From Methylophilus rhizosphaerae (GTDB lineage Bacteria; Pseudomonadota; Gammaproteobacteria; Burkholderiales; Methylophilaceae), in NCBI RefSeq assembly GCF_900100975.1, contig NZ_FNFX01000002.1, forward strand, positions 372,001-436,000: a DNA stretch of 64,000 nucleotides, read 5' to 3'. The translations under genes and the position numbers were made by a program. The notes below the pieces were generated by a model. It saw nothing but the letters and a program-made list of their open reading frames with translations, was not told the origin of the DNA and did not search any database. Of this stretch, positions 37,595 through 39,415 are shown piece by piece. Within the stretch, counting starts at the first letter, position 1. Each line of letters starts with the position of its first letter.

Positions 37595-37624
37595 ATGAAC
37601 TTAAATGATTATAACAAAATCAAA

Positions 37625-37653
37625 TTGCAGACAGGCATTCTAGCTTTTAAAAT
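37625..37653 (+). promoter_or_regulatory. Candidate sigma-70 promoter of dps
   Basis: TTGCAG (37625-37630), 17 bases, TAAAAT (37648-37653). A Shine-Dalgarno AAGGAG (37669-37674) and ATG 37681 follow. The divergent ftsK -10-like hexamer TATAAT lies at 37608-37613 on the other strand. Confidence 0.5.
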
Positions 37654-37680
37654 AGCTTTACCCACAATAAGGAGACCGCC

Positions 37681-38145
37681 ATGGATATTGGTATCAATAA
37701 CGAAGATCGTCATCAAATTGCAGAAGGTTTATCAAAACTGCTGGCGGATACATATACCTTGTATCTGAAAACCCACTACTTCCACTGGAATGTCACCGGT
37801 CCGATGTTCAACACCTTGCACCTGATGTTTGAAACACAATATACCGAGCTGGCACTGGCGGTAGACCTGGTTGCCGAACGTATCCGCTCGCTGGGTGTGT
37901 ATGCGCCGGGCACGTATGCCCAGTTTTCCAAACTGACCTCAATTGACGAAACCGTGGATGTGCCCAAAGCCAATGACATGATTCGCGAACTGGTGGCCGG
38001 CCATGAGGCCGTTTGCCGTACTGCGCGTAGCGTGTTCCCGGCAGCAGAAAAAGCGGACGATGAAGCGACAGCAGACTTGCTGACCCAACGCTTGCAGTTA
38101 CATGAAAAAACCGCATGGATGTTACGTAGTTTATTGGAGAAATAA
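37681..38145 (+). CDS. dps: Dps-family DNA-protecting ferritin-like protein
   Basis: 154 aa. Ferroxidase-site features of Dps are present: the H-W-N motif ([13 protein letters not shown]) and [17 protein letters not shown] with the Asp/Glu ligands. The Dps dodecamer stores iron, consumes peroxide and coats DNA in stress. The C-terminus [11 protein letters not shown] ends in the last alpha helix with no Lys-rich tail. The final codons are part of a long hairpin that runs past the stop. Two additional copies of this 3' end follow downstream. Confidence 0.95.
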
Positions 38146-38163
38146 ACTACGCATGCGGTTTTT
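38106..38163 (+). terminator. Compound terminator hairpin overlapping the dps stop codon
   Basis: Outer arms AAAAACCGCATG (38106-38117) and CATGCGGTTTTT (38152-38163) pair perfectly. Inner arms CGTAGTTTATT (38125-38135) and AATAAACTACG (38141-38151) pair perfectly around a 5-base loop. A 7-base bulge lies on the left. The stem thus covers 23 bp, includes the last 12 codons of dps, and ends in five Ts. Confidence 0.85.
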
Positions 38164-38205
38164 CGGTGCAGGCTAACATCGATACAATCAATGTTAAGCG
38201 AAGCG

Positions 38206-38342
38206 GCCGAAACCAAAAGACTGCCTGGATGCTGCGTAGCCTGCTTGAGAAGTAATTCCAGGCAGTCTTTCAGTACAGGCTAACCTTCAGGTTATGCCGA
38301 AACTAAAAACCGTATGGGTGCTGAGAAACCTGATGGAATAAT
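38206..38342 (+). repeat. Two additional dps 3'-end copies downstream of dps
   Basis: Copy 2 (38217-38255) reads [12 protein letters not shown]-stop, the same peptide as the dps end, with ten base changes that are all synonymous. Copy 3 (38306-38341) reads K-T-V-W-V-L-R-N-L-M-E-stop. Between copies lie the shared words CAGGCTAAC and CCGAAAC. Copy 2 has its own perfect 14-bp hairpin (38216-38229 with 38257-38270). No start codon or ribosome site makes these genes; they are fragments. Confidence 0.85.
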
Positions 38343-38389
38343 AAGCGTTACCAGTACCTCTCTAAACGCAGTCATTTAAAAACAAATCC

Positions 38390-38430
38390 GGGGATGACAC
38401 CTTGTAACAGGTAGGTTCATCCCCATTTTA
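38390..38430 (+). terminator. Hairpin before trxB, possible terminator
   Basis: Stem GGGGATGA (38390-38397) with TCATCCCC (38417-38424), an inner ACCT/AGGT pairing, then ATTTTATT. It lies 35 bases before trxB and may stop read-through from the dps side or act in the trxB leader. Confidence 0.55.
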
Positions 38431-38461
38431 TTGAACATCACTTATTCACCAAGAAAGATAA

Positions 38462-39415
<954 letters not shown>

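Follow-up and report, generated by a model that had tools for sequence, protein, structure and literature searches.

The repeats that follow dps in the window (the whole 64,000-nucleotide stretch of the Methylophilus rhizosphaerae genome analysed here) are very probably a tandem pair of gene-less mobile units that swap gene ends, and that belong to a family spread through the order. Each unit is laid out as X, gene tail, stop, X', TTTC, hairpin core and AAAA, with X' complementary to X, and it is inserted between AAAA and X inside the coding sequence of a conserved gene. Judged by genome comparison, the gene receives from the unit a new end, often a foreign one, its former end is displaced to behind the core, and transfer of units between species has taken place. 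Conserved genes can accommodate a mobile element of about 90-145 bp without being broken, as it carries a replacement ending. Such units change C-terminal codons (the Dps of the window ends in a lysine that is absent from the displaced tail 3), shuffle gene ends among species, can lead gene trees and gene-end annotation astray, and recur across the order. In the open-licence papers searched, no description of gene-end-swapping units of this kind was found.

In the window, dps, the target gene, is an ORF of 465 bp (37681-38145, forward strand, as are all features given below), for which Dps is the top NCBIfam model at 84.8 bits, under the model cut-off of 114. Its last 13 codons are supplied by the newest unit, unit a (38107-38216, 110 bp), whose left edge lies within an A-run and is uncertain by a few bases; this is followed by the older unit b (38217-38305, 89 bp). 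The borders of both units in the window were set by analogy with folE2 and tkt. Unit a consists of tail 1, which is the current dps end by translation (38107-38145), the stop, arm X' and core a. The arms X (38106-38117) and X' (38152-38163) of its hairpin A form a 12/12 inverted repeat, an inner 11-bp hairpin predicted from the DNA fold lies across the stop codon (38125-38151), and core a, of the long form TTTC...AAAA, spans 38161-38218 (E 3.3e-15, with a model that included this core). Unit b is made up of tail 2, an earlier dps end (38217-38255), the stop, arm X' and core b; its arms X (38216-38229) and X' (38257-38270) are inverted repeats over 14/14 positions, and core b, of the short form (38268-38308), was recovered at E 2.3e-5 from outside the model. 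The decayed tail 3 (38306-38344) translates as KTVWVLRNLME followed by two stop codons.

Tails 1 and 2 encode the same peptide and differ in 11 of 39 bases, all synonymously, ten of these changes falling in the 33-base interval that runs from the T codon through the last E codon. The preliminary description of this DNA had already noted the extra copies of the dps 3' end, their spacing of 110 and 89 bases, the synonymous-only changes of copy 2, the perfect stems of copies 1 and 2 and the decay of copy 3, all of which we confirm, and the words that it found to be shared, CAGGCTAAC and CCGAAAC, turn out to be parts of two copies of one hairpin core. As single-stranded DNA, the whole units a and b fold with z values of -6.1 and -4.2, respectively, and in neither case was any of 200 shuffles as good. 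Cores a and b alone fold weakly, with a z of -1.9 each and 8 and 9 of 200 shuffles as good. Both unit tails end in LLEK and a stop, tail 3 ends in LME and a stop, and LLE with a stop is found in 11 of 20 dps loci of the genus; compared with these loci, tail 3 is most readily taken for the original dps end. The arrangement in the window is explained if tail 2 was the working dps end before unit a arrived, which bears out the earlier idea that copy 2 was once part of a working gene. A stretch of 32 bases of tail 2 also matches dps-type genes in 159 enterobacterial plasmid records (93.8%), nine of the ten matches listed lying under genes named Dps or DNA starvation protection protein, and these matches may reflect shared codon choice.

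Among 187 genomes of the family searched, 106 had a dps match. Separately, we read 106 dps loci with a recognisable tail (three from outside the family, and some being second dps copies of one genome), and found the unit anatomy of the window, with elements between dps and a displaced tail, in 18 of them, 17 by score and L068 by eye. The preliminary description had proposed looking for such elements, and would have counted repeats that are absent or random in close relatives against its reading; this did not come about, as the repeats, although absent in many relatives, are ordered where present. Possible degenerate units were seen by eye in the dps-trxB gaps of four loci (L053, L054, L055 and L058). 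Across 16 pairs of neighbouring dps tails there are 103 synonymous and 18 non-synonymous changes, with nine pairs free of non-synonymous ones, where random change would be expected to be about 20% synonymous. Collapsed tandem dps genes, another earlier suggestion, are not supported as the origin of the array, as the same units stand at unrelated genes and trxB starts 148-355 bp past the dps stop in 17 of the 18 array loci (the gap of L068 being outside this set), which is too small for a second dps of 465 bp. Neither dps tail is consistently nearer to the tail of the closest relative, and therefore dps alone is not decisive.

For folE2, 22 genomes of the genus were compared, seven with the unit and 15 without. 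G015, which has it, and G021, which does not, are each other's nearest, with differences in 11 of 244 upstream bases. In G021 the reading frame runs directly to the stop; in G015 a G021-like tail is found intact behind the core (1 of 57 bases differs), and the new tail differs from that of G021 in 16 of 57 bases and from that of G008 in 2 of 57, the switch point being at GAAAA. Three further genomes, G013, G007 and G018, have a common new tail (3-5 differences in 57 bases), yet by folE2 upstream sequence the four genomes closest to any one of the three include neither of the other two. Units at tkt were found in G000 (the genome of the window), G004, G010 and G013 among 21 genomes. G010 differs from the unit-free G007 and G002 in 4 and 6 of 242 upstream bases, and in 5 and 6 of 27 tail bases, respectively; its tail is the same as in G000, and the sequence past its core reads, by eye, as the G002 tail and flank. 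In both genes the target gene is restored and its old end displaced. With the unit-side tail foreign and the displaced tail native, the moving piece is the whole of X, tail, stop, X', TTTC, core and AAAA. The tandem units, together with the displaced tails in folE2 and tkt, bear out the proposal of repeated integration into the dps 3' end.

The main rival is homologous recombination after DNA uptake, in which donor ends that already had a core would replace recipient ends, and we consider it unlikely. The folE2 tails are homologous (41-56 of 57 bases, leaving out the decayed tail of G016) and units at one gene recur across several species, as recombination would have it, but the last 244 bases before the site in G015 are G021-like and the tail G008-like, with a similar picture in tkt. 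These sharp breakpoints argue against recombination, and were seen in two genes only. Recombination would also leave it unaccounted for how one core came to stand at about 20 genes, with an X' to match in each case.

Duplicated 3' ends were found around cores at ftsW, folE2, tkt, argF, argG, metK, dnaB, typA, an aspartate-transaminase-like gene and a UrtB/LivH-like permease, and duplicated 5' ends, on the opposite strand, at nuoD, galU, ruvC, lplT, ppx and sugar epimerases; the names come from partial proteins, several top matches being under the model cut-off, and L208 was left unnamed by the models. Outside the window, the same genome has units at tkt and at an argF-like gene. At dksA, a gene named by eye, the arm is present without a clear second tail. 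The 88 cores examined come from 80 loci; 41 have a flanking repeat scoring at least 24 (99th percentile of the control 23.6), 32 of these lying above the highest control score, 33, and for the other 47 cores no flanking repeat was found at this threshold. For 31 of these 41 the start of the repeat falls within two bases of one point in the final A-run of the core (the comparison opens four bases ahead of where the matched core ends, and the 31 fall in the first three positions). As signs of a long-cargo version, three repeats more than 150 bases away were rejected, two of them (L244 and L262) starting off the junction and the third (L264) scoring 28, inside the control range. In G056, from another family, five tandem cores stand 144-145 bp apart at the same folE2 site. 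A minimal form without gene tail, AAAACGNAG-TTTC-core, makes up 19 of the 88 cores and is likely the older form.

Flanking repeats of this kind could also be produced if an ordinary transposon or retrotransposon entered at A-runs and made a long target-site duplication; the survivors would be insertions whose duplication spans a gene end, and X' would come from snap-back copying. This explanation, quite unlikely in our view, agrees with the AAAA at both junctions, with repeats of about 25-70 bp, with the location at gene ends and with the minimal form, and it could explain the first capture of a new target. Nevertheless, identical flanking repeats were not found at the insertion in folE2 of G015, where the new and displaced tails are 16/57 apart and the displaced one is native; here target-site duplication is refuted, and it may apply to first capture. 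The synonymous-only divergence of the dps tails also speaks against it, as does, for retrotransposition, the presence of RVT_1 (PF00078) in only 9 of 37 genomes; with hits in 7 of 24 genomes with cores and 2 of 13 without, this family led nowhere as a partner enzyme.

The cores themselves show paired changes. Over 87 distinct cores, position 5 forms an A-T pair with its partner in 54 and a G-C pair in 28, with 5 mismatches (p 2e-17); for position 7 the combination is T-A in 36, C-G in 20, T-G in 9 and C-A in 5, and 17 further cores have no pair there. The p value for position 7 (2e-6) refers to the 70 of 87 cores with T or C, and the 17 left out (A-A 14, A-G 2, G-G 1) have no pairing and count against the pair; moreover, the cores are related to one another, so that all these p values overstate independence. 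The apical loops are of 75 different kinds, with a mean stem of 3.6 pairs versus 1.0 for mixed arms. This covariation of core base pairs fits RNA as well as single-stranded DNA. As for the arms, in 29 of 47 units X' has better pairing with its own tail's X than with the displaced one; the reverse holds in 3, and 15 are ties (p 2.6e-6; the folE2 locus of G018, read again as L202, is in this set twice and is a tie both times). Most of the 47 X1 strings contain AAAA, which the TTTC at the core foot faces. X' is complementary to its own X, and its pairing with the recipient X is poor in some clear transfers (G013, G007 and G015).

A covariance model of 14 cores found matches in 24 of 37 relatives, and cores occur in 17 of 41 genomes sampled evenly from the order, including the genome of the window, with up to 36 per genome. 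At least 117 stretches with the core pattern were retrieved in a scan of a species-genome collection, and the 80 matches listed all have proteobacterial names, their genera being mostly what we take to be beta-proteobacteria; the pattern was built from known cores with several positions fixed and thus finds relatives only. With stricter filters, a class-wide search gave 1 of 369 genomes, that of the window itself. The core pattern had no match in viral contigs, nor did a 220-base stretch of the G015 folE2 locus match phages.

Some cores lie in other surroundings. One core of the genome of the window (G000:C10:381136-381190, in L034 and L114) is found without gene tail inside a larger palindromic repeat, its neighbours being, presumably, dnaB-like and rpsR/rplI-like genes as judged by eye. 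Dispersed larger palindromic repeats also contain the cores of L122, L124, L126, L140, L141, L144 and others, and those of L381-L391 in G056. The identical G056 cores are located in such a dispersed repeat, which has many near-identical copies with ends like GGAAACGCTGAA...TTCAGCGTTTCC, suggesting that it spread recently. Tandem cores at intervals of about 77 bp, two in L151 (G004) and three in L167 (G005), precede a gene that is presumably purE, from the appearance of its start. Oppositely oriented cores, paired at a distance of about 96 bp and resembling paired REPs, were observed in G004, G007 and G021 (for example, L163 1926-1980 and 2022-2076). Finally, cores with the same flanks occur at two contig ends of the genome of the window (G000:C7:7-47 and G000:C8:655702-655742, L147 and L148), where the repeat may have broken the assembly.

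Among candidate enzymes, the Y1 transposase family PF01797 is found in 11 of the 24 genomes with cores and in 7 of the 13 without; it was not detected in the genome of the window or in 13 of the 24 core-bearing genomes, and eight Y1 loci had no core. Its presence fails to follow the cores and it led nowhere as the partner, although the Y1 gene may have been lost after insertion, or another enzyme may act. The integron integrase model TIGR02249 has matches over its cut-off in 25 of 37 genomes, in 21 of 24 with cores versus 4 of 13 without (p 0.0008), as would suit integron-like cassettes, with the core serving as a folded, attC-like site that this integrase mobilises; the arrays, too, seem to grow at the recipient side. 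However, related genomes are not independent and the association has a p of 0.08 outside the genus, and the genome of the window has cores and no integrase over the cut-off; TIGR02249 led nowhere as the partner enzyme. The attC-like sites near intI in three genomes are unlike the cores, 20-kb stretches of six genomes gave no convincing core (best E 0.07), and the breakpoint is between AAAA and X instead of G^TT, all of which makes the cassette explanation very improbable. A selected array of 3' RNA structures (sRNA or terminators), which the preliminary description had offered, is exceedingly improbable as the main reading, the perfect hairpins with short T-runs behind them and the core covariation, which suits RNA or single-stranded DNA, being outweighed by the identical unit type at many unrelated genes, the 88 of 106 dps loci in which no unit was recognised and the lack of any Rfam match at cut-off. 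The Rfam scan of positions 37600-38500 of the window gave three matches with E <1, all far under the cut-offs, and a terminator scan, which allows loops of 3-8 bases only and is blind to these hairpins, found nothing; it is possible that the hairpins help to end transcripts.

Returning to gene-end-swapping mobile units, those measured are 89 and 110 bp long in the window and 144-145 bp in folE2 of G056, none being long enough for an enzyme. No long-cargo or autonomous copy was found among the 88 cores, and our searches yielded neither a circle nor an enzyme for their movement. The AAAA at both junctions, the hairpin with a complementary 5' foot and the growth of arrays at the gene side, as it seems to occur, suggest a single-strand reaction of the IS200/IS605 type. 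It is thus conceivable, and we propose it tentatively from this analysis, that units move as folded single-stranded DNA. The TTTC at the core foot would pair with the AAAA before X, extended by X' with X, or alternatively with the AAAA at the right end of the unit, and a trans-acting enzyme would cut after both AAAA sites, as TnpA does for IS200/IS605. New units would enter beside the gene, so that the oldest tail ends up furthest away and decays. The left cut site of the minimal form might have moved into a gene and so captured its tail. We would then possibly be dealing with a class of gene-less elements not described before, in which a folded strand carries the spare end of one conserved gene and a guide arm to match. 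On insertion into the same gene of another species, the strand would mend that gene, with natural, gene-specific homing by extended pairing.

IS200/IS605 elements have a single-stranded circle as intermediate. The units resemble this family (IS608 and ISDra2) in having a hairpin with a short 5' guide by its foot, which could pair with the cut sites, and in entering beside a fixed short A-run. A short fixed target at the left end is matched by the right end with no target-site duplication, because AAAA is present at both junctions and the flanking tails of folE2 and tkt are not duplicates. According to two reports, the guide 5' of the IS200/IS605 hairpin interacts with the cut sites (PMC6006769) and longer pairing has been engineered in IS608, with 12/17-nt targets (PMC5934647). 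In contrast to these elements, the units have no TnpA gene, none having been found in many unit-bearing genomes, and they carry a copy of the end of the target gene.

In REP sequences, GTAG or GTGG (GT[AG]G) directly precedes the palindrome. The cores are similar to REP/RAYT (TnpAREP) systems as small, dispersed, irregular palindromes that sometimes form inverted pairs. The four bases before the palindrome in the 87 distinct cores are GAAG in 32, GCAG in 31, GGAG in 16 and GTAG in only 8, and Y1 genes fail to follow the cores, so membership was rejected. REPs are known near and within genes (PMC3733652), whereas gene tails and displacement are absent from the REP descriptions consulted.

Integrase islands also supply a new gene end and leave a displaced fragment, and islands that restore their target in this way are described at tRNA and tmRNA genes (PMC4383910). 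The units differ in their size of 89-145 bp where measured, in using many protein genes and in forming tandem arrays, and membership was rejected because units of 89, 110 and 144-145 bp contain no integrase. The attC sites of integron cassettes have RYYYAAC and GTTRRRY boxes, with the crossover at G^TT. The folded site at the unit end and the array that seems to grow at the recipient side recall such cassettes; the site sequence and cut point are different, there is no platform, and the unit copies the end of the very gene that receives it. The cores were not assigned to attC, since their consensus GGCTAAC breaks RYYYAAC at position 2 and their breakpoint lies between AAAA and X. We file the unit in none of these families: its outcome is like that of gene-restoring islands, and its chemistry is perhaps like that of IS200/IS605.
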